A DNA stretch of 39,069 nucleotides from Terramyces sp. JEL0728 (Eukaryota > Chytridiomycota > Chytridiomycetes > Rhizophydiales > Terramycetaceae), in NCBI GenBank assembly GCA_027603945.1, contig JADIIU010000116.1, positions 1-39,069 on the forward strand, in the 5' to 3' direction. The position numbers and the translations under genes were made by a program. Below are positions 353-30,101 of the stretch, piece by piece. The notes beneath the pieces were generated by a model. The model saw nothing but the letters and a program-made list of their open reading frames with translations. It was not told the DNA's origin and ran no database searches. Within the stretch, counting starts at the first letter, position 1; every line of letters begins with the position of its first letter.

Positions 353-2087
353 ATGACGTCAAATGAACTTCTACGCGCGAGAAGTTGGACTTTCCATATC
401 TCAATGATGTCCATCCACGATTCCTCCAGGGTTAGTTCAAGTAATATACGAACATTGACTCCAAAAAACAAGCTTTGCCATGTCTGCGGTGATGAATTTC
501 CAAATCGCAGTATCACCTCTCATCAAAGAAGGTAAACCCCAACTTATTTCAGTTGCATCCGTAAATGTATGTCCACTGGCACTAAACGATCAATCGCAAC
601 GCTATCAGCAGGAAGTGTCATGTATTACCCTTGCGCTCATTGTAATTAAATCTGACAAAAGGCAAAGTAAAACTTCCGCAATTCAAAATGAATTCTCATA
701 TGAGATCTTGCCATGGAACAAGCATCAACGCAATTGACAATGATATTTTTGATTATCCTATTGATAACACTGAGAAACAACAAGTTCCGGCAAGCGCTCC
801 AGCGCGAAGGTCAACCAAAGTCGTTGATTCCTTCACCAACTTTGAAAGGGAAAAGGAAAGAGTAGCTGCGGTAGCAGCTGAATCCGCCCTTGGAAATCAA
901 AACGGTATCTTGCCAAAAAAGAGAATCCTAATGAAAAACAAATTGTCAATGATTCCTAGTGAATCTTCACGCGCAAGACCTTCATCATCTCACTCAGTCA
1001 GGCCACAAAAGAAGAATGAAACTAAATCAGTGGAATTGGTTGCAAAAAGAAAGCCAGCAACTAAACCAGCTCGTGAATTGGAAGGTCGTGAATCTCAAGT
1101 CCATGATCGTGATAAAGGGGAAGAACACCCATATGAAATAGATCAACAAATGCTGTCAAACAGATCGAGATCATTAGGATCATTGCATGCTGGTAAGCTT
1201 GAAAATGGCTTCTATAATGAAACACCATTACCTTCTCATCGAAATTCAATCAAAAATGGTCAACATGAAAACAATACTATAAATACTGCAAAAATTTCTA
1301 AACCCAATGAATACATTTCTCAAGCCAAATTGGAACGCGTAAATTCACTGGAATTTGATGAAAATTCTGAATTTGAAGAATCGTATCATGATAAAACCCC
1401 ACTGAATGCAAAAGCCAACATATATCCTGTTGCAAAATTAGACGTTCAGACTGCCTCAAGTTCGAATGCTTCTAAAAAAGCACCACATTCTGCCTTCCAC
1501 GAAGATCCTGTCAATGAATTGTTGGATGTTTCGGAATACTTGGTTACTTGCCACACTTGTAGCAGAAAGTTTATGGAAAATCGAATTGTAATTGGAGTTG
1601 ATTTTAGGAAAAACATTTGGTGATTTGCGAGAATGCAAATTCAAAAAAGAGAAAGGTATTCGATATAAAATTATCCCGAGTTCAAGGAACAGAGTTGGAG
1701 AAATATGCTTTGAAAAAGAAAGATCAGCATGAAGAGCCTCCAAAAGTATTTCTTTATTAATTGAAGCCTAAAAAGAGCAACTGGAGAATCAAACATGAAG
1801 CGTTTATGCACATGGTCATTTCTGCTCGTCAACCAAAGGGTTCAGCTCCTCCACTCCCTGCTGACCCGAATCCAGACTACGTTCAATGTCCAACATGTGA
1901 CAGACGATTTAATGAGGATTCTGGAAAAAGACATATACCACTTTGTAAAGAAAGAGTTGCTAAAAAAGCCATGGAGCGTCCTTCGGCTGGAAAACCCGCT
2001 GCTGGACTCGGAGGTAAAGATAAAGCTGAGGAGTTGAAAAGAAGAACAGCTTACAAGCCTCCATCTCCTAGGAAGCTAAAGAAATAA
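353..2087 (+). CDS. ZC2HC1-like protein with four C2HC zinc fingers, five exons
   Basis: Exons are 353-531, 553-641, 662-1587, 1608-1745 and 1767-2087 (550 aa, frame exact). The four introns are 21, 20, 20 and 21 nt. Splicing restores four fingers of identical spacing CX2C-X11-H-X3-C: near residues 42-61 and 85-104, then two in the last 180 residues (CHTC and CPTC fingers). Unspliced, three of the four are broken. This is the C2HC finger of the ZC2HC1 (FAM164) family; the last one (CPTCDRRFNEDSGKRHIPLC) matches it best. The long middle is Ser/Lys/Asn-rich and probably disordered. Family function is poorly known, though it is often linked to ciliated lineages. The 3' end converges on the androglobin-like gene, 59 bases away. 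Confidence 0.8.
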
Positions 2088-2146
2088 TGGTGCAAATGAA
2101 AAAGAATGTAATAAAACTCAACTATTTAGAATTTGTATTATCCGTT

Positions 2147-5100
2147 TCACTTTTTACCCGCTTTCTTCTTCTTATCCATCAGCTCTTCTCCTGCAGCCTG
2201 TTCTGCAGCCAACTCTGCAGCTCTCGAGGCGGCATCTTGGGCAGCTTTCAATTTTGCATTGATTTCTTCTGCTTCGTCGATTAGTCGCTGTCGATAGCCA
2301 TCTCTCTTTTCTATATCAACCTTGAGCCAATATTCCGATTCGTGGAGTTTTTGATCAATAGCATCAATGATATACTTTTTGTTTAGTGCTCGCTTTTCTT
2401 TTTCTGCCAGGCGTGTTTTTACAATTTCACCTTGTTTCTCGTTATGCACTTCGATATTCTTTTGACGCTGTTTGGAGTTATTTTCAAAATCGTTTTGGAA
2501 AATAACAGCTGGAGCCTCGGCGATTTTGTGAGTCACAACTTTGCTGGTGAGGTGGAAGACATTGCTATTGTGCTCGTCTGAATTATCGCTATGTGAGGCT
2601 GCAGCGGATGCTGTTCGGTAGTTAACTGTTGGCTGAGTTGGATATGGATAGACTAATGGCTTCGTCAAGGCAATTGGCTTTGGTTCAGTTCCTGGACGTG
2701 TATCTTTAGGGGTTAATAGCACTTTCGGGCAGCTTTTTTTCAGTACATTCCAAGTTCTGTTGATTTTATCTCCCAAAATAATGTTCACTGGATGGATATT
2801 TCCCAAGTCTGAATGTTTCAGGTAGTTTTCTCTGTTATCTCTTGCCCTATTCATCCTCCCAGGTGCCGCGGTTTCCCAAGATTCCTTAATTGCTTTATAT
2901 CTATCTTCTTTTTCGGTATCTTTCACAACTAGTACACTGGATGTGTCGGTAGAAATAAGACGTAAACTCCAAAAGAACTCCAACTCGGAAGGAGGGGCTG
3001 TTGCTTGTGGAGAAGTTCCTGCTACGACTGCTACTGCAGGTGCAGGTGTTTGGTTTCCAGCAGTTACTGATGCCGAGTTGACCTTTTTCTTTTTTGAAGC
3101 TGCTGAACCAGACTTACTGCTTCTCGACGTTGGCCGATTAGGGTCATTTGAACTGTTGCTTGTAATTTGGTTGAGCCTGTCCACCTCCGATTCTAAAATC
3201 GTAGCTTGAAGAACATACTTGTGTTTTGGAAGTATAGGTGCCGGTGGAGCACTTTGAGCTCCTGCTGGCCCTTTTTTGTCATCCTTAGACGGTTTAGCTG
3301 GAGGAGGGTCTTCCGCTTGATGGAGCAATACATTGTTGATAGTTGCTAACCCTTTGCCTTGAACAGAACATATTTCAACGTCATTATCATACAAAACTAT
3401 TTTTATCCATATAGATTGCATCGAAAATGATACCTGGAGTGATAAATTATTGATCGGCGTTTCCTTCACCTTAAGCACTGATCTGAAGAGAATATGGTGC
3501 TTATTTGGAGCGTATGCCTCCGTAAAGTCCTGGATGTTCATTTTTGTGGAAACAGTTTCCTTTTCAGACAATGTCGGCGTTATGTTTTCTGACATCAAAC
3601 GGAACTTCCATTTTGCTTGGGGTCTTCCGGTTAAACTGCGAGTTTCAGCTAAAATTGTATATCCAGATTTTGACGGTTGAAAGACTTGAGGGTAAAGCTG
3701 AAACCCTATTTGTTTTAATTCATCTCCAGTGTCGTTATTGATTGCTCTCACAATTGTTGATGATTGCATCGAATCAGGAATGTACAGATTGGAAATGTAA
3801 AACGTAGGTTCCGTCACAGCTAAAATATGCTTGAATAAAACAGACCAAGCTCCTGGTTGTTGCGGAGGTAAATGGTCTTCGAATTCTCTCAACTTATATC
3901 CATGTTTCTCAACCAAAAATTTGGTTTCATCTTCTATGATATAATCATCCTTTGATAAAAAAGTGACTGTAAAATTGTTTGCATTTTCTGTTACAACTCT
4001 ATAACCACATCCAGGGACATTTTTTAAGTAGGCTGAGGTGTAGCCATTTCCTTTCAGTCTTAATACCTGCTGGTTTTTCACTGGATTTTCCCAAGAGTAT
4101 TCTTCAATGAATATCAAAGTAGGCAAACTATTTACAGAATTCTCCCTTCCGTATGTAGATAAAAAAATCAGTATCCCCGGATCAGCGGCATTTGATCCTT
4201 CCGGTGAGTCTAAGTCAACCATAATTTACAGATCAAGCTTGGGATACGATATGTTTCGTTATTTTTTGTTTGATCAGTTACAAAACTAATAGTTTTTACA
4301 TTTTTAAACAAGTATTGGGGATGAAAAACTGTAAAATGGCTTTGTAAACAAGCAAATACCTAAAATTGGAGCATAGCTCAGATTCAGATATCCACTGATC
4401 TATAAATTCCTGGCAGTCTTCCTCTGGCTTCCCTTTGTTCTTTTTATAACTATATTAGCACAAGATAACCCTGACGAAAAGTATGGTCGAATTTGATAAA
4501 GTTTCCCATCGGAAGAATCTAGTGAATCTTGAACGTCCACCAGCCGATATGGAATTAATAAATTGTTTAGTTCAAACTTATCAGAAGCAAATTCCTGGAA
4601 TTAAACCCTATTACTGATTGTTTTTTGTATACAAAAATGACAAATCCAGTTAGCAAATATTTGTGGGTAAGGGCTAACGACGATGACCTGGTATTTGGTG
4701 TAATAACTGGAGACTGAGAAGACATTCTTGGCTTCATTGTCCTTCTGGTCATAAAATTCGCCATAACTGATCCTAACGAAACTATTTGGTCAGCCAAGAT
4801 ATTGATTCGTTCTGGCACCCATCCTCGAATTGCCGTTTTGATAACGAAATCTCCAAATTCACACTGCTCAGGATCTTCCTTGTAGCTACCGTCAATTTAA
4901 AGTACCTTAAACTTGCGACTTTCAACAAAGCTTTGCATAGAATCATTGGCCAAATTTCATTTATTGGACACGAGGATAGAATTAGTGGTCGTCCCTGAGA
5001 GTCCAGCGGTATTTTATCATCAACGGTAACCTTTCTCCAAGACCCTAGCCAATATAGTTTCACAATATATTTCCCTGATGAATTGTACTGTGGCAGCCCA

Positions 5101-5816
5101 TCTTTTGCTTTTGGGTAAATGTTTTCCCAGGGCATTGGATCGTCAGATTGCAATCCGTTTGTTTTTAGTGTTTTATTGTGTTCGTAAAAGTAATGCAACG
5201 CCGAGAGCAACGAGACCATAAATTCAGAATGTAATAAATGCTTGTTGGCTTGAAATAATTTCGAAGTTCCATTTGCAAAGATTGTATCTTCCTCTACTTC
5301 TTCAGCCATTGGTATTTCTTTTTCCTCTTCTCCTTCTGAAATTAGCCGTTCCTTACCAATTACCACTGCAAGTTGTTCTGTCTGCAGAGGAGTTTCTGCC
5401 TTTTCAGGTTCAGGAGGGAAATCTGTCGACGCAAATCTTGGGATTTCTTCTTCAGGTATTCCTGACTTTGGAGAAACGAACACTGAGCCTCTTGGTTGAG
5501 CTGTGAAAGGTGTTGAAAGTTTTGTAAGTGGGCAAGGCTTTTGCGAATAGAATAATTCATCCATACCTGACAGCGGTTGAACAACTATAGGAGCTGCGGT
5601 ATCTCCAATTATATCACATGCTCTCTTTGTAGATTCAAATAGTTTCCGTAAACTCCTTGGCAAATATACCGGTCCGTCAACATCTTCATACGCGTGTTTG
5701 CTCGCCCATTTTTCAGATAACACTTCTGATTCAGACCATTCTGGCCATATTGTCACATTAGGCTCTGGTAGTTCTTCTAAATTTTCTGGTTTTCTAATCC
5801 CAGCTGATTTTGACAT
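2147..5816 (-). CDS. Androglobin-like protein (calpain-like domain) lacking the globin domain, six exons
   Basis: Exons (minus) are 5816-4906, 4885-4615, 4594-4470, 4449-4360, 4339-4230 and 4209-2147 (1189 aa); all five introns are 20 nt. The N-terminus has the androglobin WPEWSESE segment, then the calpain-like core (GKYIVKLYWLGSWRKVTVDD, about residue 245) ending in GWVPERI. A linker, a calpain domain III-like beta region (around 500-600), the androglobin post-globin region (INNDTG to AKWKFRL) and a Lys/Glu/Ala coiled coil ending KKKKAGKK follow. No calpain DCW signature is seen, so proteolysis is doubtful. The permuted globin and IQ motif expected between domain III and the post-globin region are absent. 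Exon 2 (4885-4615) is the least certain part. The nearest possible start is ATG 5816. Confidence 0.78.
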
Positions 5817-6087: not shown

Positions 6088-9000
6088 ATGCTTACGAAAT
6101 TCGAAACCAAAGTATATTCGATTTAATTCAGTCAAATAAAGTAAAAGGAATCGCATTTCATCCGAAACGATCATGGGTTTTGGCCTCGCTTCATAACGGG
6201 ACCATTCAACTCTGGGATTACAAGCTGGGAACGATGGTTGAAAGATATGATGAACACGAAGGTATCTTTTATTAACAAGGCCCTGTACGTAGCGTTGCCT
6301 TCCATAAATCCCAACCTCTCTTTGTTTCTGGCGGAGATGATTACAAAATTAAAGTGTGGAATTGGAAACAAGCCCGCTGCTTATTTACATTAACAGGGCA
6401 TCTTGACTTTATCCGATGTGTATCATTCCATAACGAAAGTCCTTGGATATTGTCCTGCGGCGATGATCAAACTATTAGAATTTGGAATTGGCAATCAAGA
6501 AATTGCATGTCTGTTTTGACGGGGCATTCTCACTATGTAATGTCTGCAGAGTTCCATCCAAAAGAAGATTTATTGTTATCGGCTAGTTTGGATCAAACTG
6601 TCCGTGTTTGGGATATTTCAGGTAAGAGGACAAGCATCCGTTTCAATGAACAGATTAATCGATAGGATTGAAAAAGAAGAATGCAGCCGGAAAGCCTGCT
6701 CAGAGAGAAGATCGATTCGGAGGCCCTCCTGGAGCGGGAAATGCTGATGTTTTTGGGAATATTGATTGTATTGTTAAATATGTGCTCGAAGGACATTCAA
6801 GACCAACTAACTTTGCATCGTTCCATCCAACGCTGCCACTAATTATCTCCGGTGGCGATGACAGACTAATTAAATTGTGGAGAATGAACGACTCAAAGGC
6901 ATGGGAAGTGGACACCTGCCGCGGCCACTACAACTCTGTAAACAGCGTTTTGTTCAACGTACGTCAAGATGTAATTGTTTCTGCAGCCGAAGATAAAACC
7001 ATCAGAATTTGGGACATGACCAAGCGGACTTGTTTGCAGACTTTCAAGAGAGAACACGACAAATTTTGGTGCCTTACATTACACCCTGATGTTAATCTGT
7101 TGGCAGCAGGGCACGATAATGGTTTAATTGTGTTCAAGCTGGAACGAGAAAGACCTGCTTATGACATTCACAATGATACTTTGTATTACGTAAAGGATAA
7201 GACTATCAGACAGGTTAACTTGGTAAGTGCAAAAGAAGAAGTAGTCGCAAATATTAAGCGTGGACACCCAGGACAAAGCCCGCCCCCAAGAACACTGTCT
7301 TACAATCCTGCGGAGCATGCTGTATTGCTGACCAGTGGAAAAGACGATGCAACTGTGGACGTTTACAACTTCTCTCGTGGTGGAAATAAAGATGTTGAAC
7401 CAAAGAGAGTCAGTGGGTCCTCGGCAATTTATTTAGCAAGAAACAGATATGCAGTTTTGGAAAAGAACCAAGTTTTGATCAAGGATTTATCTCACAATGT
7501 CACCAAAGAGGTTACTGTGGTTAATATGGATGGAAAGCCTGTCAAGCCAATTGATATTTACTATGTTGGCGGAAAGTCCATTTTGGTTTCAACTTTGTCC
7601 AGCGTTATTTTGTTTGACACAGAAACCAAAGCTGCGCTTGGAGAAACTATTATCAGTAACGCACGCTATGTATACTGGTCTCCAGATCAATCTCTGTTGG
7701 CTCTTGCCAACAAACACAGTAAGCGCTAAACTAATGCAGATATTGTCATTGTTAGCAAATTCATGGATACTATTTGCCAAATTAATGAAAAAATTAAAAT
7801 TAAAAGCGGTACTTGGGATTCTAACGGCGTATTTGTTTACTCGACACTTAACCACATCAAGTATTGTCTGACAAACGGAGATGTTGGCATTATCAAAACC
7901 ATTGAACACCCGATTTACTTGCTGCGCGTGAAGAACGACTCGATTATTTCGTTGGACAGATCTGGAACTGTGGTTGCCATTCCATTTGATCCAACTGAAT
8001 ACAAGTTCAAGTTGGCATTGGTTAACAAAAATTATGATGAAGTTTTCCATATCATTAGAACTTCTAACCTTATGGGGCAGGCTATCATTGGATATTTGCA
8101 AAAGAAAGGTTATCCCGAAGTAATACCACTTTAATTTAGATTGCTTTGCAGTTTGTTAAAGATCCAAAAACCAGATTTGATTTGGCTATTGAATGTGGGA
8201 ATATTGAAGCTGCGCTTGAAATGGCCAAAGTTATTGACAATGAACACTACTGGAAAAAACTTGGAAGCGAAGCTCTTAAACAGGGCAATCAACTGGTTGT
8301 CGAATATGTCTACCAGAAGAGCAAAGATTTCGACAAACTTTCATTCTTATATTTGGTGACTGGCAACACTGAAAAGCTTGGGAAAATGTTGCAAATTGCC
8401 AAGGCTAGAAAAGATGCAATGTCCCAATACCAAAATGCAACTTTTGTTGGAGACATTACTGAACAGGTGCATATTCTCAGAGAAGCTGGACAGCTTCAAT
8501 TGGCTTATCTGGCTGCGCAAACCTATGGGTTGTATGACGAAGCAAATAGCATCCTTGCGCAAGCCGGATTAGAAGCAGCCCCACCAATCTTGCAAAATTC
8601 TCAATTAGCCAGAGCCCCTTTGCCAATATTCAAGCAGTTTGATTCCAACTGGCCGCTATTGTCTGTCTCTAAACCTGCTTTTGCTTCAAGTTTACAGCAA
8701 GATAATGCTTTGGCGGCACCTACCGCTGTTTTAGAGGACGCTGACTTGGACAATGTTGGTGACTGGGGAGATGAGGGTTTGGATGAAGTTGGAGAAAAGA
8801 AACCTGAAAAGAAGACTCCAGTAACTGATGAAGCTCCAGAACTCGAAATTGAAGGTGAAGGTTGGGATATTGACGGAGAGTTAGATGATATGTTGGAGTC
8901 TCCAAAATCTCCAAAAGTGCCATTTGTTCTTCCAAACCACGGAAAGGGTACTGGAAGCATCTGGGCAAGAAATTCCACCCTTGCTGCTGATCACATTGCC

Positions 9001-9921
9001 GCAGGATCCATCGAAGCTGCCATGAAAGTGATATTCAACTAAACGTAGATGCTGAACAAGCAAGCAGGAATCGTCAACTTTGCCCCGCTGAAACCATTAT
9101 TTACCTCGATATCCAGGACCTCAAATGCATATTTGTCTGGTGTCACTTTGCTTCCTTCTATTCCTACTCCAATTAATAGAACATGGAGCGAAGACGAAAA
9201 TGCATGGCTGCCAGCATCCTTGTATACGTCAGAAGTTCTCATTAGCAAGCTGCAACAAGCATACCCAGTGATGACTCGTGGAAAGTAATTGAAATTTAAT
9301 TTAGTTTTGCCGAAGCTACTAATTTGTTTAGAGAAATTATTCATCAAGCGGTGCTGACTGTAGCAAAGACCCAGTCAGAAGCTTCCGAAGTCCTGCAATT
9401 AATCGAAGTCTGCAAGCAGTATCTTTTGGGTCTTGCAATTGAAAATGCACGTAGAGACCTTGGATCCGATGATCCAAAGCGTGGTGTAGAGCTAGCTGCA
9501 TACTTTACGCACTGCAACCTTCAGTCAGTGCATTTACAATTGGCGATTAGACTTGCGATGGTACAGGCATTCAAGTTGAGGAACTATGGTACTGCCCTTT
9601 CATTTGCAACACGGTTATTGGAACTTGGCCCTGCACCAGCCGTTGCGCAATCGGTAGATATTTGATTAATTTCAGGCAAACAAAATTGTGGCCCATTGTG
9701 AAAGAAATTCCTCAAATGAAGTGCAATTAGACTATGATCAATACAATCCATTTGTTACCTGTGCCGCATCCTTTACTCCAATATATCAAGGTAACCCAAG
9801 CGTGCAATGCCCATATTGCCAAGCTCATTACAAACCTGAATTCAAAGATACCTTGTGTAGAATTTGCCAACTTAGTAAAATTGATGCAGACGCGACTGGT
9901 TTAGTCCTCTGCGATTCTTGA
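6088..9921 (+). CDS. Coatomer (COPI) subunit alpha, nine exons
   Basis: Exons are 6088-6111, 6132-6261, 6280-6621, 6666-7718, 7740-8119, 8140-9027, 9049-9284, 9305-9653 and 9676-9921 (1215 aa, close to the usual 1200-1225). Introns are 20, 18, 44, 21, 20, 21, 20 and 22 nt. The first exon codes only MLTKFETK, the conserved alpha-COP start. Residues 1 to about 310 are WD repeats that bind KKxx cargo signals. A second propeller and helical solenoid follow, then an acidic linker (around 860-930), and the COPI C-terminal domain ends with two Cys pairs (CPYC and CRIC). The protein is a core subunit of the coat for Golgi-to-ER vesicles. Conservation across every junction makes this the best control for the intron calls. 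Confidence 0.95.
6262..6279 (+). other. 18-nt intron in the COPI alpha gene
   Basis: GTATCTTTTATTAACAAG, flanked by codons giving [12 protein letters not shown], which is invariant alpha-COP sequence. It is the shortest intron of the 39 found. TTAAC near the 3' end resembles a branch site. Confidence 0.85.
6622..6665 (+). other. 44-nt intron in the COPI alpha gene, the only long one
   Basis: Starts GTAAGAGG and ends ATTAATCGATAG. Removing it joins VWDISG to LKKKN as in all alpha-COPs. It is twice as long as any other intron in the window. Confidence 0.85.
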
Positions 9922-10056: not shown

Positions 10057-13000
10057 ATGACAACTGAAGAAAAGCAGTATCCAAAGAGAGATTTTCTCAT
10101 AAATCTCGAAAAGAAAGCTCAACAAAAATGGCAAGAGGAAGGAGTATTCAACACCGATGCACCAACTGAACATAGTCAGGAAAAGTTTGTTGCGACCTTC
10201 CCTTATCCTTATATGAATGGTCGCCTCCATGCTGGCCATTCATTTACACTTTCAAAGTCCGAATTCGCATGTGGGTACCAGCGTTTGAAAGGAAAAAGAG
10301 TTTTGTATCCGTTTGGATTCCACTGTACTGGAATGCCAATCAAAGCTTGTGCAGATAAACTGAAAAAAGAAATCGAAATGTTTGGAAAGAATTTTGAAAG
10401 ATATGTGGAACCAGAAGTAGTCGAAGAGGAAGCTCCACCTCCAAGCAATCCAAAGGAAGCCAAAGGTGATCCAAAAGACCCATCTAAATCTAAAAAGGTA
10501 AATTTTACTAAAGAAGGGTAAAGCAACTGCTAAAGCTTCTAAATTCACCTACCAATTCCAAATCATGAAGGAAATGGGTGTCCCAACTGAAGATATCCAC
10601 AAATTCGCAGAAGCACTTCACTGGCTATATTACTTTCCACCGCATGTTAAAGCTGACATGCAAAGGATGGGCATGTCCGTGGATTGGAGAAGATCCTTTA
10701 TTACAACGGATGTTAATCCATACTACGATTCTTTTGTTCGCTGGCAATTTAACCTTTTGAAAAAGTTGAATAAGATCAAGTTTGGAGAAAGAAATACCAT
10801 CTATTCTGTACTTGATGGACAAGCTTGCATGGATCACGATCGAGCTTCTGGTGAAGGGGTTGGTGTGCAAGAATACACTGGTATTAAACTTCAAGTTCTT
10901 TTGGATGATATCCATCTCGAATCGCAGTATAAAGTAGATGGTGTGCCAGTCGGAGAAAAGCTCTCTGATCCAGAATTCAGAAAGAAGCTTGGAAACAGAA
11001 AATTGTACTTGGTAGCCGGTACTCTTCGTCCAGAAACTATGTACGGGCAAACCAACTGCTACGTTGGCAAAAAGTTGGATTATGGTGTATTCCAAGTAAG
11101 TGACACTGAAGCTTGGGTTTGCACCGAAAGAGCTGCTAGGAACATGGCGTGGCAGAAGCTGTTTAAAGAAAAGGGTGTCGTTGCAAAGCTAATTGATTTG
11201 AAAGGATCCGATCTTGTTGGTGTACCTCTTGCTGCCCCTCACTCTCCTTACCCTAAGGTGTACACTCTTCCTATGGAAAAGGTGTTGGCTGATAAAGGTA
11301 CCGGTGTTGTTACATCAGTTCCTTCTGACTCTCCAGATGACTACATCACGATGATGGACTTGGTCAAGAAAAAGGATTACTACCAAATCCAAGCTCATTG
11401 GGTTGAACCTTTCATGCCACCAAAGCCAATTATTAAAACTCCAAATCTTGGTGACTTGGCTGCTGTAAAAGTTGTTACTGACATGAAAATCAATGGCCAA
11501 GGTGATCAAAGATTGCCGGAAGCCAAAGAAATAGTTTACAAGGAAGGTTTCTACCAAGGTGTGATGCTCGTCGGTAAATATGCTGGAAAGTAAATTTGTT
11601 TAATGTAGACCAGTTCAAGAAGCAAAGCCTTTGATGAGACAAGATATGATTGACCAAGGAAGTGCTTTCCCATACGCCGAACCTGAAGGAAGAGTGGTCA
11701 GTAGAAGTGGAGACGAATGTATTGTAGCTCTTATGGACCAATGGTACATGGACTATGGTGAAGAATCGTGGAGGGCGGACGCAATTAAATGTGTCGAAGA
11801 AATGAACTGTTATGGCGAGGAAACGAAAAATGGTCTTTTGAAATCATTGGACTGGCTTGGCCAATGGGCATGTACTCGAAGATTCGGTCTTGGTTCCAGG
11901 CTTCCTTGGGACAAAGATTGGCTTATTGAATCTCTTAGTGATTCCACAATCTACATGGCATACTACACTGTTGCGCATATTCTCCATGAAGGTACCATTG
12001 ACGGATCAAAGCCATCTAAACATAATATCAAGGCTGAAGATATGACTGACGACGTTTGGTCCTATATTATGCTTGATGGGCCACTTCCGCAATCAAAAAT
12101 TCCAAAAGAAAAGCTTGACTTGATGAAGAATGAATTCAACTACTTTTATCCGCTCGATCTGAGAGTTACAGGTAAAGACTTGATCTCCAATCATCTTTCA
12201 TTCTTTATTTACAATCACGTTGCTATTTTCCCCCATGCTAAATGGCCAAAAGGGAGTCGTGCAAATGGTCACTTGTTGCTGAATGGCGAAAAGATGTCTA
12301 AATCCACGGGTAACTTTATGATGATGTCCCAAGCCTTGGACAAGTTTGGTGCTGATGCCTTCAGATTTGCCCTTGCAGATGCTGGTGACACTATGGAAGA
12401 TGCCAACTTCTTGGAAAAGACTGCTGATGATGCTATTCTCAAGTTGTACACTGAACAGGAATGGATTGCAGAAACTTTGAAAGAATCATCTAAACTTCGT
12501 ACTGGGGGATGGAGCTGGAACGACAAGGTCTTTGCTGCCCAAATTGATAGCGTCATTGAGCAAGCTGAAAAAGCGTTTGAAGGTATGTTGTACCGTGAAG
12601 CCGTCAAGATTGGTTATTATGATCTTCAAAATGCTCGGAACGAATATCGTAAAGCAACCACCGGACAAGGTCTTACAATTCTCAATGATAAAGAAGTATT
12701 TGAAAACATGCACATTGATTTGATTCGCAGGTTTGCAGAAGTTCAAGCTCTTATGCTTGTTACTTTTACTCCACATTGGTCGGAATATGTCTGGACTGAA
12801 TTGTTGGGTCACAAAACTTCTGTAATTACTGCGCTCTGGCCAAAAATTAGCAAAATTGATAAAGGATTGATTGCTTCTGCAGAGTATGTCCGCGGACTTG
12901 GTTCCAAGATTAGATCGGTTGAAGATGCTGCTGCCAGAAAAAAGAACAAGAAAGGTAAACCAGCTGAAGTTGCGCCAGACACTGAAAAGCAAATTAACCT

Positions 13001-13405
13001 CTTTATTTGTTCCAAGGTGCCTGAATGGCAAAAGCAATCAGTTGAATTTGTAAAATCACATTACAATGCAACCGCAAAAACTTTTGCTGATGACTACAAG
13101 GATCACTTGAAGAATCTCAAGATTGCTGATAAGCGCGCCAAAGGATTTATTGCAAATATCAAGGTATATTAAAAGTAATCTAGAAAAATGTTGAAACTAT
13201 TGGAGACGAAGCACTTGAGCGCGACTTGCTTTTCGATGAAAAGAAAGTGATTGGGATTAACATGGACTTTTTGCGTAGAGATCTTGCCACTCTTAAAATC
13301 ACTTCTATTAATGTTATTGAATCTTCTTCTGTTGCCGCTGATGATCAAGACGCAAAGAAAGCTGACGAGGCAGTGCCTGGAGAGCCAACTTATCGTATCT
13401 TTTAA
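10057..13405 (+). CDS. Cytosolic leucyl-tRNA synthetase, four exons
   Basis: Exons are 10057-10497, 10517-11589, 11609-13163 and 13184-13405 (1096 aa; yeast and human enzymes are about 1090-1180). Introns are 19, 19 and 20 nt. It charges tRNA-Leu with leucine. The class I HIGH motif reads HAGH at 58-61 and KMSKS lies near residue 733 ([11 protein letters not shown]). The CP1 editing domain and the long archaeal/eukaryotic-type insertion ([20 protein letters not shown]) are present. A Pro/Lys-rich loop near residue 130-150 precedes the first intron. The short last exon supplies a C-terminal domain ending YRIF. The ATG at 10057 is chosen because upstream in-frame sequence has no earlier ATG. 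It starts 135 bases after the coatomer stop. Confidence 0.93.
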
Positions 13406-13554: not shown

Positions 13555-15229
13555 TTATTCTAAAATATATTTCAATGGTGGAGCTAGTCCAGTAAAAGTA
13601 GTATTGTCATGATAACCAGCAGCATTTCCGGTGATTTTAATTCCTCTGGCAATGCAGTTATTTTTCATTTGCTGAGGGATAGTTTGGCTCTTTTGCAATT
13701 GGAGAGGAGCTTCAATTAGTTGTGCAGCAAGACCAGTAGCAAAGTGCCATTGGATGTGGCAGTGGAATGGCCATACTCCTGGATTGTCTGCTCTGAATCT
13801 TAGCACGGCCCATCCTCTCTTTGGAATGATCACAGTATCTCTTCTAACTGGATTCTTCAATGCATTGAAGACTGGGTTGAGTGCAGTTTCATTGTAGTAT
13901 GGAGTGTATCCTTTGCCCACAAGTTGGAATGAGTGTCCATGCATATGGAATGGATGGTCGCCTTCCTTATCCAAGTTCAGCACAACTAATTGGATCATTT
14001 GGTTGTATGGCAAAACATTGGAGTGGGTAGATGGCCCATAAATTGCATTTTGGGTTGCCAAATTGCCCATTGTAGAAGCCGAGAAAATAGCTGGAACATT
14101 TGGGAAAGCGTAGGAAACTCTATCAAAGGATCCGTGGTTTCTATCGTCAGTGAATTTCCCAAAAACAACTTTATACGTCAAGGTGAAATCCGGAGCAATG
14201 GAATGAATCGGTACAATTGGAACTAATTGAGTTTCGTCCAAAGTGAATTCTGGCTCGTCTCCAGTAAAGTTGAATAGTGGAGCAGTAGGACTATATTGCA
14301 GAGTAGAGGTTACGGATCTTGAATAGTTGGCAGGAAAGTTGTCTCCAAACATATCTTCGTTGAATGCAACATTGATGTTGTAGTTGTAGTTAATAGACTT
14401 TAAAGTGTCTACAACAACAGAATATCTTTGAGCGGAACCAAGCAAGAGAGTGTCAACTTGGTAAGGATGAACACTGACACCATCAACTTCAACAATAGTC
14501 AAATTGTGGTTGTCGATCCAGAACTTCATTGAAGCAAAGGTAGCCATGGCAATTACTCTGAATCTGTATTTTTGGCCAGGTTTGACTGCGAATACTTGGT
14601 TTGGAGCGTCGTTGATGACAGGCCCAGATGGAATCGGTTCTGCACCTTCGCCGTTGAATTCAAGAAAGAAATCATTATACTACAATTAGGACTAACTTAC
14701 AAATAAATCTTCAAATTCCCTGTCGTACCAATCAGAGAGAGCTACTGTAAATTCGTCATAATATCCAAAAGTAAGGTTATCTTCATAGTTTTGAATAACT
14801 AGTGGAGTACGGAATCCGTTTGGATAGTCCCCAAACCCATGTCCATGAATCCTGCAAGTAAATTAATATTTACCAAAAACTTCCGACCTGATTCAATTTT
14901 ACTTTGTAAGTATAGCTGCCGCCAAAAGGAATTCCACAATCGTTAATCCCAAGTGCACCATCGTAAAAATTGGTGCCATTTTGGAAAATGCCATGAAAGT
15001 GAATAGAGGTTGGCGAATCTCTTTGTAAATTGTTTGTTGCATGAATAACCAGTACATCTCCTTGGTTTGCGATTACAGGCGGAATTGGCCATTCGCCGTT
15101 AATTCCAATAACTCTTCGAGGAAACCCGCCTCTTGGGTCTGCATTTTCAACATAGCCGATATTCCAGTTCAGTTCAATGACAGCGGTGCTTATTGCAGCG
15201 AATAATACTGGCAAAGTGCTCAAAAGCAT
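13555..15229 (-). CDS. Secreted Fet3-like multicopper oxidase (laccase/ferroxidase family), three exons
   Basis: Exons (minus) are 15229-14874, 14851-14701 and 14679-13555 (543 aa); introns are 22 and 21 nt. A hydrophobic signal peptide covers about residues 1-18. All four copper-ligand blocks are visible: HFH 77-79, W-x-H-x-H near 119-123 (split by intron 1), HPFHMHGH around 411-418 and HCHIQWH around 475-481, with Leu at the usual axial position of the type 1 copper. Wording around GAEPIP and the C-terminal CIARG/GNAA block resembles yeast Fet3, where the Glu of this loop is linked to ferroxidase activity. Unlike Fet3 there is no C-terminal membrane span, so the product should be secreted. 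Ferroxidase versus phenol oxidase activity cannot be decided here. Confidence 0.88.
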
Positions 15230-15594: not shown

Positions 15595-17711
15595 TTAACA
15601 TTTTTCATTATTATTCACAGGTTGCGCTGCTGGAGTAGGCTTGAAAATAAAACTAAAACCACCTAAAGTAGCTGTTTGGCCAGGTATAGTAAAAGTAGGA
15701 AAGAATACCACTTTGTCTGTTGTCACTGGTGTGGAGCTACTGGTAATTGTACTGGACGATGATGCGGTACTTGAAGGGGTACTATTGCTGGCAGCCGGGG
15801 TGGTAACCGTTGTGGTGGAACTTGCGGTAATCATCAAAGTACTTTGTAGCAAAGTAGTTTGGTCCATTAGGTCAGTTGTGGAGCTGCTTTGCCCCATGGA
15901 AGACGTTGTGGTGATTATCTGATAAGTTGTGGTTGTCGGAAGAATATATGCCACAGTCGACAAGGTAATCTGAGGAACTTGGGCATCAGAAGTTGGGGAA
16001 ACTGCTGTCCTTACCATGTCAGTGGTTGTTGCAGGGTAAGTTGTCACGATATCGGTCGTTGTTGCAAGATCAGTAAAAGTGCTAGCGTCATCTACTGTAG
16101 TGGTAGGATAGCTTGGGATTGTTCCTCCATTAGGCAGATTTGGATTAAAGTTTAAATACAAGTCCCAGCTTTGGAGAATTCTACTATGCGTTTCGATGAA
16201 GGCAGGAGTTGAACCATCAGAAGGCAACGCAAGATCTTGACAGTGTCTGCCGCCACTGTTGCCCAATACGATGTTTGGTAGTTGAAAGTCTGGGCCAGGC
16301 TGCGACGGATTGAGGTTAATTTGAGCAGAGTTTGGAGTTAACGACAAGAAAGAGTAAGGGTCAGTATCCCCATTCACAAATACTATTCTTGTAGTCGCCG
16401 CATAGATATTCAGACCTAAATAGTCTTTGTTTATCCTGGTGACATTTGGTCTGAAATTCGGAGTATTAAATGTAACATTACACAGCCAATGAAAGTAGTC
16501 TACAGTCAAAAATCTCGAATAAGCCGTGGTAGAGTGATCTGAATATACTTGGAAATAGCCAAAATCTTTGCACATCTGCCATGTCCATAACTTTAGCGAG
16601 GGATTAGTTTCGCTTGCAAGCGTGTCCAGCTTTACAAAGGTATCAGGCGTAGGATACTTGATTTTAATGAACTGGATATAATCCGCCAACACATCTGCAT
16701 CGCTCGAAGTGGGGTCAATGAATGCAGGCACAAAATCGCCAGAACATACGTACGTAACAGATTTTGTATAGTTGAAATCACCCAAGTCTACATAATCAGA
16801 TACGCCATATTGCACTAGTGTCGCAAAGTTTGTTGAAACACCAGCCAGATCGCGGACATTCAGGTTAGGGGGAGCTCCAACCGCTTGCAACACTGCAGAA
16901 GCATTATTTGTGGCAATATAGTTGTCAAATATTGCAACAGCTCTCCTCCATCCGGCAGCACACACTTGGGAACCACCACTTTTCGCTAATCCAATATCAA
17001 CCTAAATTAATAATGAATTACCCCATATCCGTATTGCCAAAATTCTTCCACTGCATACAAAGGAGCAGAGGAGGAATGGGCAGCAAAAACAAGATCTGGA
17101 TACTTTAATCTCATCCATGCAGCTAGATTGCCTAAAATTAACAATTCGTTACCTGCATAGCTGCCACCAATAGTAATCCACTTGTTATGTACCAGTGATG
17201 AGTTATACCCTTTAATAAATTCAGCGGTATCTGCCAGAACTTGGTCAACCGTCAGCCATTTTAAATTCTGTGGTGTGAAATCTTTAACAGTCAAATTAGC
17301 AACTGGCTGCGACGTTCCTTTTCCATAGTACCGATGTTCAAGCCCGATATGCAATCCATTATATCGCTGTGCCATTTCTGAAATCAATGAAAAATCGGCA
17401 TAGTACTGTCCTAATGGCGCTTCGCCACCAAGTTCTAAAAATATTGGACCGCCATCTTTGTAATAGCGAGAATCTACATAATACAGTTGTTGCCAGGTGT
17501 TTGTGTCTCTTTGGTTGAAATGATCCCGCTTTTGTGTGAAAAAGTAGTATGGATATCTTCCGGAAGGTGTGGTCGCTGCTTTCGCAAGAGCCATTGGTCT
17601 ATCGTTTAATATGTGCTGATTAGCAATTCTCATTTGATTTGCTTCTGCCAATGATACATGATGCAACTTTGAAGTTACTGCAGCAATCAGAAACAGCAAT
17701 TCTACAAACAT
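15595..17711 (-). CDS. Secreted serine carboxypeptidase, peptidase family S28, with Ser/Thr-rich tail, three exons
   Basis: Exons (minus) are 17711-17153, 17131-17022 and 17001-15595 (691 aa). Introns are 21 and 20 nt. The first is in frame and has no stop, so it would be read through as seven extra residues inside GGSYAG/NLAAW if missed. Family S28 (prolyl carboxypeptidase, DPP7, PRSS16) cleaves next to proline. The nucleophile Ser184 is in GGSYAG, the acid is probably Asp437 (NGDTDPYS) and the base His476 (GRHCQD). A signal peptide covers about 1-14. Residues from about 510 to the end are a Ser/Thr-rich, likely O-glycosylated tail not typical of the family, ending in a short Phe/Pro segment and a final Cys. 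A TATA box lies about 25 bases upstream. Confidence 0.88.
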
Positions 17712-18549: not shown

Positions 18550-20007
<1,458 letters not shown>

Positions 20008-20152: not shown

Positions 20153-21349
20153 TTAACAGCATTTACTCAGTAATTGCCCTGCTATAAACTGTGCCCCATT
20201 AGAATCAATACATACATCAGTTGAAATCTTCCCTGCTTCTTCTACAAAAGCGCTCCATTTCCCAGACTGGAATTTATCCAGCGGCATTTCAATAGCCAGC
20301 TTGCCCATCATCTTCAGTAGCCCAGCTTCTTCAATAAACTGGGGTCTAGACACGTACAGTAAGGGGGTTTTACTGGCCAGCGTTTCTGAACATACTCCAT
20401 AGCCGCATTTCCCTAGTACGACATCGCAACACTCGATTATATCTGGCATGAACGTGATTGCAGGATCAACGACAATGAATCGATCTAGGTTTAGGGACTT
20501 GTTGAATGTTATTCCAACCCATCCATCAGGTAGCAACTGCACTTTATCACATGCCTTGGTAGTTAGTTGGAAAGCACCAAAGTTTATCAGCAGTACTTTA
20601 GCATCAAGGGGAATACCCAATTCTTGGCGAACCTGTTGGCAAGTTTTTCTTGGTTTCCTAACTACAAGCGGTGTCGGAACGAGAAATTTCTGGTTGTCAT
20701 CAGGTATAGTTTGTTTCTGGGGATGCACATCAAAAACAGGCATATCAATGAACCCGGGGAGCCGCAGTAGTCCATCGCATTCGGAATAGGAATCTTTTAT
20801 TTTCTCTAGTATTTCAAAATGAACAGGCTTCTCTGCCAAATGCTGTAGTATCGCATCAAAGGTAAAGTTGGTTGCAATAACACACGGGAGCCCAATATTC
20901 TTGTTAATTAATGCTTACTTTACAAGCCTTTGCGGGATATGGTGTTGCATCCAAGAAACAAATGTTTGGTCTGATAGATTCCAGCCATTTCGATTCTGAT
21001 TCGATTAATTTGCAAACTATTGTGTGGTAGTCTATCTGTGCTTGCCAAGTCTTTTCCAGATCTATCGTAACCGCATCTGATTGAATTACGCCTAGATAAA
21101 TCTGAATGTACCTGGATCAATTATTCCAGAGCACCGGGTATGCAGGCATGGGTATATTGATTTCAAGTCATTGAATATAAACAAATCCCTGGCCGTTACA
21201 ACTGTTACCCTATGTCCCTGTCTTAATATTTCTTCAATTATCGCATAACATCGAGTTGCATGCCCCAAACCATGTCCGGTAATGTAGCACACAATGTGCT
21301 GGATTTTCATGACCATCTTGGAGTCACTGGGCGTTATTTCCTGTGCCAT
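20153..21349 (-). CDS. Stand-alone arabinokinase N-domain-like GT-B glycosyltransferase, three exons
   Basis: Exons (minus) are 21349-21112, 21091-20919 and 20899-20153 (385 aa); introns are 20 and 19 nt. The N-terminus has YITGHGLGHATRCYAIIEEI, a glycine-rich start like that of the glycosyltransferase-like N-terminal half of plant L-arabinokinase. DPGVIQSDAVTIDLEKT, RLPGFIDMPVFD, PLVVRKPRK and DVVLGKCGYGVCSETLASKTPLLYV also follow that family. The GHMP sugar-kinase half of the plant enzyme is absent: the protein stops shortly after the second Rossmann domain. Sugar donor and acceptor cannot be predicted, and a glycosyltransferase-like role is inferred from the fold only. No signal peptide is seen. 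Confidence 0.72.
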
Positions 21350-23689: not shown

Positions 23690-23717
23690 TTGTCTCTTTT
23701 GATGGTGTTTTTAACAA

Positions 23718-24399: not shown

Positions 24400-24406
24400 T
24401 ATAAAT
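24400..24406 (+). promoter_or_regulatory. TATA box of the second GPI-type Cys-rich gene
   Basis: TATAAAT lies 28-34 bases before the ATG at 24434. Confidence 0.55.
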
Positions 24407-24433
24407 TCCGCCATTTTGAACTGGAATTTAACA

Positions 24434-25850: not shown

Positions 25851-26503
25851 TTAGTTTTTGCCGACATAGGTGTACTTGTCAACTTTTGCCAATGCCTGTT
25901 GGTAAGAAGGCATCGCATGGATTTGATTAGCCCATCGTTCCATTGCTTGCGTGTCTATATCAACCAATCTCTTCATCAAAAAAACTTCAATTGGCAGCGA
26001 CATGGCTATATTAATTAACAGTCACCAACATCGGCACCACTGAATTCACTGGCAAACCATTCATGAGTCTTCAAGTGTTGTTCAATAAATCCAAAGATAT
26101 TGATCAAGCGTGGAAAAACTTTGGTATTTAGCAATTCGTCTCGTTCCATGTTAGCGGTATTTGTATGAATAACGAGATCAGTCATTGCAGATCCTTCAGC
26201 GAAATGCAGCCAGAATCTGACCTGCAGCTTGTCTTCAAATGATTTTGGTAGCAGATTGACTGGGTCGGTAAAGGTTTCAACAAAGTATTCAATTATTGCT
26301 CCGGTTTCTACAATAACTCTGCCATTATGGGAAATCATTGGACATCGCCCTAATGGATGAATTTGCTTTAGTTCTGCTGGTGCACGACGAGTAGCTGGAT
26401 CCATATCGTATGCTTTGATATCGCAAGGTACTCGAAGATGCTGCAAGAGCCAAATGATTCTTTGCGATCTAGAATTGTTGAGATGATAGACAATTACCGC
26501 CAT
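25851..26503 (-). CDS. Glutathione S-transferase, fungal Gtt1-like, two exons
   Basis: Exons (minus) are 26503-26026 and 26005-25851 (210 aa); the intron is 20 nt and joins SGADV to AMSLPIE, matching the conserved SGAD-x-x-(M)S segment of GST C-terminal domains. The N-terminal thioredoxin fold runs MAVIVYHLNNSRSQRIIWLL, with PAELKQIHPLGRCPMI and the ETGAIIEY glutathione-binding segment. The start at 26503 gives a normal GST length. The frame stays open further upstream (to about 26569), so an N-terminal extension cannot be excluded. A role in cytosolic detoxification or peroxide handling is inferred from the family. Confidence 0.82.
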
Positions 26504-26699
26504 TTGGAAGCAATTTTTCATACAGCTTGATGAAAATCCGTGGCTATTAACGGAACGTTCCCGTCGCACACAACTACAATGAAACGTTGATCAAGTACCG
26601 ACTGTTTTTCCAGCCGATATCTGATTCATTGTTGGTGATTTCGGCAAAGGGATCCTGAGCCGCCAAACTCGAAACAGTTGCGGTGGACATTTTATCCAA

Positions 26700-27515: not shown

Positions 27516-27526
27516 AAATTATATTA

Positions 27527-29067
27527 TTATTTCCTAGCTCGTCTAACAAATCTAGGTGTCTTTGGTTCAGTCAAAGGTTTATCACTCGGCTTGATAGCAA
27601 GCGGCTTTTGTTTCTTGACTGGTTGAGCTTTATGAACAATCTCTTTACGCAATCGCTTGATTTCCTTTTTCTCTTGTTCCTGAATTAATAACAAATACTT
27701 TTTTTAGTTTTTCCATCTTTTCTAATAATTCTTGCTCCTGTTGCTGTTTTTCTTTGATCGACTGTTCGTATATTTGTCGTTCTTTCTGCCTATTGGTCAA
27801 GTGAGACTGGAATTCTTGGATTTCTGTTAGCGGTTTCTCGCTCTTTTTTGGCATGAATGGGTCTTGTGGTGGTAATGGCTGAGCTTTGAATTCAGCCTGT
27901 TTTTGTAATTCTTGTTTTTCATGATCAAGCTTTTCTTGCAAATGTTGTTTATACACTTCCCCGCGTTTATCAGTCGCTAAATCGAAAGGTTCAGGCTCGG
28001 TTATCCTGGTATCATGATGGACTTGGAATGTCTATGTTAATTATAAATACTTGGTCCAGTTTAGGTTCATTGGCTTTAAATTCCCGTTGTTTCTTTGATT
28101 CCAAACTTGTCTTTTCCTTTAATTCCCGAAGCTCGCGCTGTTTCTGTTCATGAATATAATCTCCAGGTAAATGGAACTCTGGTACGGGAATCTTGCGATG
28201 TTCAATTTCTGGTTTAAATGGATTGGATAGATCTGGAGCTGGATTGGCTTTAATTTGTTTTGGAGACGGTGGTTTAATTACTTTGGGTTGTGGTTTTTGG
28301 ATTGCTGGTGATTGCGGAATAGTTAATGGTGCTGGTGCTGGCTGTGGAAGGGAATCTTTCAACTCTAGAATCTATGTTAGCGGAAAATACTCTTTTGTTT
28401 AACAGTTTAGCCTTGAAAGGCTTTACTTTTTTCAATTCCAGTTCTTCCATTTCTGCTGCAGAGGGTACATGCGGTCTAATTAGCAAAAGCTTACTTGTGC
28501 TGTGCTCTCAATTTAGTGGTCAGGAATGGCGATTGCGGTTGAGTGAGTTTATCATTCTGTGTTACTTTTGCTGGTTTCTTTGCTTTAGTCTTGAATCTAG
28601 CAGGTGTTTGTTGCTGGAATTTCGATACTTTAACAGCAAGCGGAACAAACGGTGATTTTGGTTCTGCTTGTGTTTTAGTTTTAGATAGATTAAATGGCTT
28701 TGGAATCGTCAATCCTCTCTTTGTTTTTTTCTATATTAATACAAAGTACTTGAACTGCTGGAGCGTCCACTCGTTTTCGTAGAGTCATTGAGTGAGTTAA
28801 ACTCCTCTTTCGCAACTTCATTTTGCTCGGTGCAGGTTTCTTTTTCTCCTTTTTAGGGTTTTCAATAGGCAGATCTGGTGTTTCTGTTCTTGTATCTACG
28901 ATTATAAAGTAGTTACCAAACCAATTGTCCGGGTTCTTTTCGTCCTTTTCCGAAAAGTCGTGGAATTGCGGAGCGTTGAAATCAAAGGTTGGCGATTGGG
29001 ATTTAGGGTTTGTTGGGGTTATGTCAGCCTCGCGAGTTCTTTTTGCTCTTGGTGTTTCCAAGTCCAT
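27527..29067 (-). CDS. TPX2-like spindle assembly factor, seven exons
   Basis: Exons (minus) are 29067-28917, 28895-28750, 28730-28495, 28475-28391, 28371-28051, 28031-27699 and 27679-27527 (474 aa). Introns are 21, 19, 19, 19, 19 and 19 nt; the first is in frame and open. TPX2 organises spindle microtubules and activates Aurora A. Landmarks are FDFNAPQFHDFSEKDE...DNWF near the N-terminus, LTIPKPFNL, KVKPFKAKLLNKRILE, FDLATDKRGEVYKQ and, at the C-terminus, EIKRLRKEIVHKAQPVK, the TPX2 repeat core. The second half is a charged coiled coil. It is shorter than vertebrate TPX2 (about 750 aa). Six introns make it the most intron-dense gene per codon here. Confidence 0.8.
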
Positions 29068-29282
29068 TGTAGATTGTCCAGAAATCTTTTTCCAAGTGGC
29101 TTGTTTGTTGATGGACAAAATCAACAGTGATATCCCCGTCTGTATCTTGTTGGTGTCCTTCTCACTTGAACTTTTTGGTACTGGAATGCAAATTTCAAAC
29201 GATGATTGAGATAAGGCGCATTTAAGATGGATCCGCAAATAATTGTTGAATAGCAACTACAATAGTGCCTGTAAAACAATGT

Positions 29283-30101
29283 TTATTTCTCTGCTTTGTA
29301 CAGCCCATTCTGCTGTATATAATCAACAACAGGGTCAGGCAAAAGGTACCTGGTGCTCATCCCCCTCCGAATAAACAACCTAATCTTTGTCGACGAAATA
29401 TCATTATGAATATACTGCTTAACTACCCATACGTTTTTCTAGTTAATAAAAAGTTACTCTATGAACAAATAACGAGTCGTTGGTCAGCAAGAAATCATGG
29501 ACGTTTGCACCAGTACGTTCGATAATCAAACATCCGAACCCACCGAGAATGTAATACAACTAGGATTAATGTAAAGTACATCTTGTTCTTTCCATAGATT
29601 AGGTACAGCGAACGATTGAATGAGATCACCGCCTGCTAATAATACAATGCGGATAAGTTTACGTTCAGTGCCAACCGCTAATCCACCATCTCTATTAAGA
29701 TATTCATTAAAATGATCCAGTACTTTGGCTGTTCGTATATATTCCACTTGACTTGGTTCCCAGCAATCAACCATTATCCAGGTACTATCTTGACAGGCTA
29801 GCGAACACATACTAACTCTGTGTTGCCAATGTGCAAGACCTGGTTTAGCGTATGCATCCGATACCGGCGAAAAGTAGCCTCCGATAATTTCAAAATTCGT
29901 ATCTTGGATATAATCGTATGCCATCTCAAACATTCGTAAGTGGAGGTACGTTACTGGCGAGTAGGAACCACAGGCGACTACTACCAGGGGTGTTTTTGTG
30001 GTATCTTTTAGGGCTGTTTTTAGTTTGTGTGTTGGGAATGCGTAGTTTTCTGGCAGTGTTGGTGATGTTGTAGAGTTCACTCTTGCTTTGCTTGCAGACA
30101 T
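29283..30101 (-). CDS. Nicotinamide mononucleotide adenylyltransferase, three exons
   Basis: Exons (minus) are 30101-29580, 29559-29458 and 29438-29283 (259 aa); introns are 20 and 19 nt. It joins NMN (or nicotinate mononucleotide) and ATP to make NAD. The nucleotidyltransferase motif GSYSPVTYLHLRMFE (residues 45-59, with the T/H-x-x-H signature) and the C-terminal NDISSTKIR (about 220-228) are intact. ERTGANVHDF and the GLY end also match eukaryotic NMNATs. Unspliced, the ISSTKIR end would be lost. The start is ATG 30101; the longer frame begins at TTG. A TCACGTGA palindrome is 42 bases upstream. Confidence 0.93.

Follow-up and report, generated by a model that had tools for sequence, protein, structure and literature searches.

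The window analysed here, a stretch of 39,069 bases (G000:C116:1-39069) taken from a 231-contig assembly that totals 15,016,339 bases, carries eleven genes between positions 353 and 30101 whose reading frames are interrupted by segments of about 20 nucleotides (nt). The question raised by this locus is whether segments so short are spliceosomal introns and how a spliceosome could recognize them. On the basis of DNA and protein comparison, from which all the results below are derived, they are very probably true spliceosomal introns of the U2 type, belonging to a chytrid fungus near Boothiomyces in which the intron set appears to have collapsed to 19–22 nt, with rare exceptions.

Introns of 18–22 nt in eleven genes

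Nine of the eleven genes were built with a constrained gene model, combining a codon score with splice weights and admitting introns of 17–24 nt; the models of coatomer alpha (COPA) and leucyl-tRNA synthetase (LeuRS) were assembled by hand from weighted gene-finder output and the sequence. Together they contain 39 introns: one of 18 nt, ten of 19, 17 of 20, seven of 21, three of 22 and one of 44. The tally of the first-pass annotation (38 of 39 introns at 18–22 nt, in eleven genes) is thereby reproduced exactly, an agreement that concerns sizes, since no single-intron coordinates had been given. Its statement that the spliced models sum to whole codons also holds, all eleven running cleanly from ATG to stop. 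The ends are GT-AG in 38 introns and GC-AG in one (19967–19988). Removal restores the frame in every case, and retention introduces a premature stop in 37, the other two introns being multiples of three in length and free of stops (17132–17152 and 28896–28916). Three weaker candidates were excluded before the count: 15717–15740 and 22459–22479, both weak and within open frames, and 5336–5356, a plausible 21-nt segment that was dropped in the knowledge that the tally matched without it and that would bring the total to 40. The density in these genes is 1.84 introns per kb of coding sequence, and the internal exons are long (n = 28, median 230.5 nt). Six genes match the Pfam families C2HC zinc finger, multicopper oxidase, S28 peptidase, glutathione transferase, TPX2 and androglobin; the glycosyltransferase match of the gene at 20153..21349 scored below the cut-off. 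The genes and their introns are as follows.

353..2087 (+), C2HC zinc-finger gene, 4 introns; start codon at 353 assigned by eye, at 404 in the model; Pfam
532..552 (+), intron, 21 nt; gene model
642..661 (+), intron, 20 nt; gene model
1588..1607 (+), intron, 20 nt; gene model
1746..1766 (+), intron, 21 nt; gene model
2147..5816 (-), androglobin/calpain-like gene, 5 introns, possible sixth at 5336-5356; Pfam
4886..4905 (-), intron, 20 nt; gene model
4595..4614 (-), intron, 20 nt; gene model
4450..4469 (-), intron, 20 nt; gene model
4340..4359 (-), intron, 20 nt; gene model
4210..4229 (-), intron, 20 nt; gene model
6088..9921 (+), COPA, 8 introns; hand model, alignment
6112..6131 (+), intron, 20 nt; model and alignment
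6262..6279 (+), intron, 18 nt, the shortest; model and alignment
6622..6665 (+), intron, 44 nt, the outlier; junction continuous with solved coatomer alpha
7719..7739 (+), intron, 21 nt; model and alignment
8120..8139 (+), intron, 20 nt; model and alignment
9028..9048 (+), intron, 21 nt; model and alignment, junction at the extreme end of the displayed alignment
9285..9304 (+), intron, 20 nt; model
9654..9675 (+), intron, 22 nt; model
10057..13405 (+), cytosolic LeuRS, 3 introns; hand model, homology
10498..10516 (+), intron, 19 nt; model and alignment, 16-nt alternative ending at 10513
11590..11608 (+), intron, 19 nt; model and alignment
13164..13183 (+), intron, 20 nt; model and alignment
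13555..15229 (-), multicopper oxidase, 2 introns; gene model, Pfam
14852..14873 (-), intron, 22 nt; gene model
14680..14700 (-), intron, 21 nt; gene model
15595..17711 (-), serine carboxypeptidase S28, 2 introns; gene model, Pfam
17132..17152 (-), intron, 21 nt, multiple of three and stopless; gene model, within the Pfam S28 match
17002..17021 (-), intron, 20 nt; gene model
18550..20007 (-), argininosuccinate lyase (ASL), 4 introns; gene model, alignment
19967..19988 (-), intron, 22 nt, GC-AG; gene model and alignment
19156..19175 (-), intron, 20 nt; gene model and alignment
19040..19059 (-), intron, 20 nt; gene model and alignment
18796..18814 (-), intron, 19 nt; gene model and alignment
20153..21349 (-), glycosyltransferase-like gene, 2 introns; gene model, Pfam below cut-off
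21092..21111 (-), intron, 20 nt; gene model
20900..20918 (-), intron, 19 nt; gene model
25851..26521 (-), glutathione transferase-like gene, 1 intron; gene model, Pfam
26006..26025 (-), intron, 20 nt; gene model
27527..29067 (-), TPX2-domain gene, 6 introns; gene model, Pfam
28896..28916 (-), intron, 21 nt, multiple of three and stopless; gene model
28731..28749 (-), intron, 19 nt; gene model
28476..28494 (-), intron, 19 nt; gene model
28372..28390 (-), intron, 19 nt; gene model
28032..28050 (-), intron, 19 nt; gene model
27680..27698 (-), intron, 19 nt; gene model
29283..30101 (-), NMN adenylyltransferase (NMNAT), 2 introns; gene model, alignment
29560..29579 (-), intron, 20 nt; gene model and alignment
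29439..29457 (-), intron, 19 nt; gene model and alignment

Another 21-nt candidate, 32769–32789 on the minus strand, is also a stopless multiple of three and lies outside 353..30101; it was not counted. Both this segment and 5336–5356, on the same strand, are in frame, without stops and equipped with intron-like signals; if they are spliced, frame-based methods undercount introns whose length is a multiple of three.

Protein homology across the junctions

Fifteen junctions, four in ASL, two in NMNAT, six in COPA and three in LeuRS, are backed by residue-level alignments. After excision, ASL aligns with entry 1aos, which we take to be human ASL, over 453 residues without a gap, across all four introns including the one with GC-AG ends. 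The NMNAT alignment spans both of its junctions. In COPA the alignment covers residues 1–1211, and six of the eight junctions fall in its displayed part, among them that of the 44-nt intron, whose removal yields WDISG/LKKKN against WDISGLRKKN in the solved coatomer alpha. All three LeuRS junctions are aligned with a Boothiomyces protein from the database, whose own sequence is predicted.

Chance controls and genome-wide abundance

Statistics were collected on a sample of 239,069 bases, made up of the window and the first 20 kb of each of the contigs C1 to C10 (520 to 203 kb long); beyond it, the analysis extended to a few regions surrounding genes for spliceosome components and EF-1-like proteins. 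In a frame-joining test, a segment was scored when its excision turned two long, open, coding-like frames, both ending near the junction, into one, and GT-AG was compared with nine decoy pairs of end dinucleotides in 11 bins from 10 to 400 nt (an earlier version reached 80 nt). At 18–22 nt there were 99 GT-AG places against 14.9–23.9 (scaled) for the decoys; in the ten remaining bins, up to 400 nt, GT-AG stayed within the decoy range, on a background that was high (for example, 771 places at 101–150 nt). The second control was a gene finder without any splice-motif model, run with GT-AG and with five decoy pairs. It placed 95 of 157 GT-AG introns at 18–22 nt, the decoy runs giving 9/122, 10/128, 11/98, 9/104 and 16/128, and its GT-AG counts for 17, 18, 19, 20, 21, 22 and 23 nt were 4, 1, 19, 43, 18, 14 and 2. 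The excess at 18–22 nt is not due to chance, and the narrow size peak described in the first-pass annotation is borne out, as GT-AG exceeds the decoys in that bin only.

When splice weights were added, with no length limit below 60 nt, the gene finder returned 507 introns in the 239 kb, 273 of them of 18–22 nt; the other 234 lay at a flat background, and neighbouring genes were over-joined. A genome-wide count of GTAAT-N{0,30}-CTAAY-NN-AG gives 618 places, against 233 for the reversed form, an excess of 385; among the 100 places listed, 51 measure 19 nt and 27 measure 20 nt. The 273 introns per 239 kb, which are partly background, suggest a genome total of the order of ten thousand introns. 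The pattern is narrow, being matched by 7 of 281 sample introns, and leads to a similar estimate, with a wide error. Nearly all introns are found within a few nucleotides of one another in the range of about 15–25 nt, as judged from 239 kb of 15.0 Mb and a single pattern counted genome-wide, and a minority may be longer.

Splice signals and branch-site spacing

The 95 introns of 18–22 nt found without splice weights have a mean length of 20.26 nt (standard deviation 0.98). Their commonest start is GTAAT (23 of 95) and they end in TAG (67), CAG (18) or AAG (10). The branch motif YTRAY (Y, pyrimidine; R, purine) is present in 74.7% of them, against 22% when shuffled. Seventy-seven contain the core TRAY; in 65 of these the A is at nucleotide 14–15, and in 70 it lies 5–6 nt before the intron end. 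With the inner letters shuffled, TRAY is present in 28 introns on average, 23% of them with the A at 14–15 and 24% with it 5–6 nt from the end. Among 7,139 GT..AG segments of equal lengths taken anywhere in the sample, the figures for those two positions are 6.0% and 6.8%. The motif itself is degenerate, the commonest WCTRAY/CTRAYN hexamer amounting to 6.3%, and it is its position that is nearly fixed. The weighted finder gave similar values for its 18–22 nt introns (A at 14–15 in 185 of 212 motif-bearing introns, 5–6 nt to the end in 198), but these counts are partly circular because the splice weights include the branch region, and the set of 95 obtained without weights is therefore the more reliable one. 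In the window, TRAY is present in 33 of the 39 introns, with the A at 14–15 in 28 of the 33.

The near-constant quantity is a pair of short distances, 14–15 nt from the start to the branch A and then 5–6 nt to the end. Because only two or three nucleotides separate the branch site from the AG, there is no room for a polypyrimidine tract. The spliceosomal nature that the first reading had ascribed to these segments is sustained by the GT-AG ends and the YTRAY motif at its near-fixed place.

Host, spliceosome components and U2AF65

The nearest relatives of several proteins identify the host as a chytrid fungus close to Boothiomyces (Chytridiomycota, Rhizophydiales, Terramycetaceae), as far as protein comparison can tell. 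LeuRS has 94% identity with its counterpart in Boothiomyces sp. JEL0838 and 64% with the Globomyces pollinis-pini protein, U2AF65 is 93% identical to that of B. macroporosus, and the nearest COPA among the matches listed is that of Globomyces pollinis-pini (66%). EF-1 alpha carries an insertion that we take to be typical of opisthokonts. The fungal affinity in the earlier description of the host as a fungus-like opisthokont is upheld, and the organism is more than fungus-like, standing next to a true chytrid.

The three spliceosome genes that the first pass had singled out, U2AF, SF1 and Prp8, are all represented. The Prp8 PROCN domain scores 774 bits. The SF1 helix-hairpin domain is detected above its cut-off in two pieces, the gene not being rebuildable with a simple gene model. 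U2AF65 is encoded on contig C2 and matches solved human-type U2AF65 over residues 110–306. The U2 small nuclear RNA (snRNA) is ordinary (140 bits) and its branch-pairing GUAGUA is intact, in keeping with the enrichment of YTRAY at a near-fixed place; U5 snRNA is also present (86 bits). In the models of the Prp8 and U2AF65 loci the introns are again of 19–20 nt, apart from a doubtful one of 17 nt in Prp8, and the same kind of short segment is seen in a gene identified by eye as eRF3-like.

In U2AF65 the RNP1 motif of RRM1 reads KEHCHVEF, both in the host and in B. macroporosus. Its two His residues occupy the positions of the phenylalanines that, in RRM1 of human U2AF65, stack on the bases of a polypyrimidine tract. 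Phe or Tyr stands at both positions in 118 of the 120 homologues listed out of 1,516 found, the exceptions being B. macroporosus and one environmental protein, P0243 (KNSAIVEF). RRM2 keeps KGFAFCEY, and U2AF65 of Globomyces and of Batrachochytrium retains the RRM1 aromatics. P0243 is the third-best homologue, lacks both RRM1 RNP1 aromatics, and may derive from another short-intron relative. In the B. macroporosus protein (P0241, 578 residues) U2AF65 is preceded, in one protein, by a PF17136 domain, presumably of the ribosomal L24 type. It also lacks ten residues present in the host and Globomyces proteins; a cause for this gap was sought and none was found, and the sequence is probably a faulty gene model.

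The 120 COPA matches listed out of 5,473 include none from Boothiomyces. Since COPA is unlisted and the B. macroporosus U2AF65 is fused and short of ten residues, there is a suspicion of damaged gene models in the genus; our guess is that deposited Boothiomyces models may suffer from the tiny introns, that of LeuRS being right.

Proposed mechanism and alternatives

Each intron consists of hardly anything beyond three adjoining signals: a 5′ splice site rich in GTA, a branch site of the form T-purine-A-pyrimidine, and the AG. We infer that the segments are spliced, and that the 5′ splice site and the branch site are recognized or bound together across a single intron, at a spacing that may be near the physical lower limit of the assembled spliceosome. 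The first AG past the branch point would then be used, so that the 3′ splice site would be chosen by nearness and not by a polypyrimidine tract, and U2AF65, with an RRM1 devoid of two aromatics, would be adapted to tract-less introns and would no longer read a tract. Extended to evolution, the proposal becomes more tentative, and we rate it somewhat below an even chance: an intron-rich chytrid lineage would have cut nearly its whole intron set, of the order of ten thousand, to a two-part ruler and disabled the polypyrimidine-tract binding of U2AF65 RRM1, with nothing but the branch site and the nearest AG left to define the 3′ splice site.

Several observations weigh against the main reading of these segments. 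A strict ruler is contradicted by the COPA intron of 44 nt, which is backed by homology, has more than twice the usual length and shows that any measuring distance is not absolute. TRAY is missing from six of the 39 introns in the window, and five of the 33 that carry it have the A outside 14–15. The high background of the longer bins means that a small class of longer introns could go undetected, and a minority of them could hide there. The match to the NCBIfam model of the U2AF large subunit, read across introns, reaches 251.7 bits with a cut-off of 310.3, and the change in U2AF65 is a correlation within one genus. The Rfam search did not find U1 snRNA, in a setting where prokaryotic control genomes cannot validate the search, and no convincing U6 was found with the Rfam model, a blast search with the Rfam consensus or two patterns. 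These failures may stem from the assembly, from the search, or from divergent or interrupted genes, and they leave the spliceosome incomplete; a U6 gene interrupted by an intron is possible.

The U6 candidates were all rejected. Two 27-bit Rfam matches (cut-off 44 bits), on contigs C199 and C111, have no AGC triad by eye; the stretches bearing them (L002 and L003) are 98.9% alike over 3.1 kb. The blast search of the Rfam consensus against the genome gave no match. The first pattern occurred at 20 places, against 4 when reversed, none of the 20 being U6-like by eye, and the second at 5 against 1, its best place, on C59, being coding-like DNA without a U6 match. In the 239-kb sample, Rfam scans recovered two tRNAs only.

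The chances are equal that the change in U2AF65 RRM1 has nothing to do with intron length and reflects drift or a new partner of this domain. Its restriction to B. macroporosus and one environmental protein, besides the host, among the homologues listed is compatible with such an origin. Against it, the change strikes precisely the two aromatic RNP1 positions and leaves RRM2 intact, in a genome whose introns have no room for a tract.

For the uniform length itself, two accounts compete with each other. Selection may maintain it, through intron definition and quality control of retained introns, if longer introns are spliced poorly and upward drift is purged; we would put this just under one chance in two. 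The size distribution falls off steeply on either side, both spacings are nearly constant, the exons are long, and 37 of the 39 introns carry an early stop when retained, yet stopless introns in multiples of three do exist (17132–17152). Multiples of three and stops were also considered as a sign of selection acting by decay of intron-retaining RNA, but this test is biased by the intron-finding method and was not used. With a similar probability, slightly short of evens, the uniformity is neutral, deletion bias or streamlining having reduced the introns to a steric minimum and no length being actively measured. The abrupt lower edge (1 intron at 18 nt and 19 at 19 nt in the set without weights) and the existence of the 44-nt intron are in line with this, but the numbers drop steeply at the upper edge too (14 introns of 22 nt, 2 of 23 nt), where some introns would be expected to have grown by neutral insertion. 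The intron definition with a fixed measuring distance advanced in the first-pass annotation is plausible and unproven: the near-fixed branch site speaks for it, and its strict form fails at 6622–6665. The long exons fit intron definition and are no test of it.

That the segments are sequencing or assembly frameshifts or lesions bounded by chance GT and AG is highly improbable: 37 of the 39 do break the frame if kept, as lesions would, but the sharp peak appears for GT-AG alone among ten dinucleotide pairs, the branch motif has a near-fixed place, similar segments recur in Prp8, U2AF65 and the eRF3-like gene and in the genome-wide pattern excess, and ASL is gapless against 1aos after excision.

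Comparison with known short introns

Reading the segments as spliceosomal introns adds a case to a size class that is already known from ciliates, mikrocytids and nucleomorphs. At 19–22 nt, the host introns would rank with the shortest on record for any organism. The nucleomorph of the chlorarachniophyte Bigelowiella natans has more than 800 introns in a narrow range of 18–21 bp (PMC10245619); it resembles the host in this narrow, tiny size, whereas the host introns belong to a fungal nuclear genome and have a clear branch site. Stentor introns are 15–16 nt long, with a near-invariant branch A at position 10 of 15 (PMC9505925). The 3′ spacing would be common to both systems (branch A 5 nt before the end), the 5′ side being four nucleotides shorter in the ciliate; U2AF and SF1 are reported present in Stentor, and the host likewise has U2AF65 and an SF1 domain. 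Mikrocytid introns are uniform and sequence-conserved, at 16–17 nt (PMC10245619), and share with those of the host uniformity, very short size and sequence conservation, but they number 224 and belong to a parasite with a reduced spliceosome.

The nearest opisthokont case met is Dicyema, at about 25 nt, where the row for 41 introns gives 25, 24.93 and 2.51, read here as median, mean and standard deviation (PMC2483917). Its introns are also very short, but they are longer than those of the host and belong to an animal parasite. No clear branch-point signature is reported in that source for Dicyema, Paramecium tetraurelia or B. natans, whereas the host does show one, YTRAY at a near-fixed place; the lack of such a signature does not define every ultrashort-intron genome. 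The nearest fungal case met is Cryptococcus neoformans, in which short and ultra-short (<60 nt) introns are reported to make up a larger share than in any other fungus under comparison, with an average of 56 nt and a small population under 40 nt (PMC11913375); both are short-intron fungi, those of C. neoformans being far longer. A precedent for tract-poor short introns spliced without U2AF is offered by human SPF45/RBM17, with which short introns with truncated polypyrimidine tracts are spliced instead of U2AF, the model intron being of 56 nt (PMC8363638). In the titles and abstract openings of the literature on short introns, chytrids, aphelids, zoosporic fungi, microsporidia and Boothiomyces, no report of 20-nt introns in a fungus was found; subscription papers and supplements were outside this scope, and genome portals may hold such lengths.

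Other features of the window and the assembly

Beyond the eleven genes, five neighbouring intronless reading frames of about 270–310 residues occupy 33670–38456 on the plus strand. By eye they look related and membrane-bound; a broken fragment lies near 36430–36660, and the first frame has no Pfam match. The G+C content, in 2-kb steps, is 34–38% over 30001–38000 and 38–42% in the first 30 kb. Two short intronless frames on the plus strand, 23718–24134 and 24356–24727, encode products that by eye look secreted, with hydrophobic tails. Elsewhere in the assembly, the EF-1-like matches on C81, like those on C37/C56, are paired at almost the same score; with the near-identical stretches of C199 and C111, the assembly seems to hold recent copies.

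Implications

Gene predictors set to a larger minimum intron may break many genes in this genus. For the study of splicing, the host introns are numerous enough for easy statistics, and their branch site can be read by eye. Boothiomyces is culturable. The smallest distances that a fungal spliceosome tolerates, the need for U2AF and the upkeep of intron length are therefore directly testable, with Globomyces and Batrachochytrium for comparison, and the lineage would provide a system for asking how small introns can get and how splicing copes without one of its usual signals.

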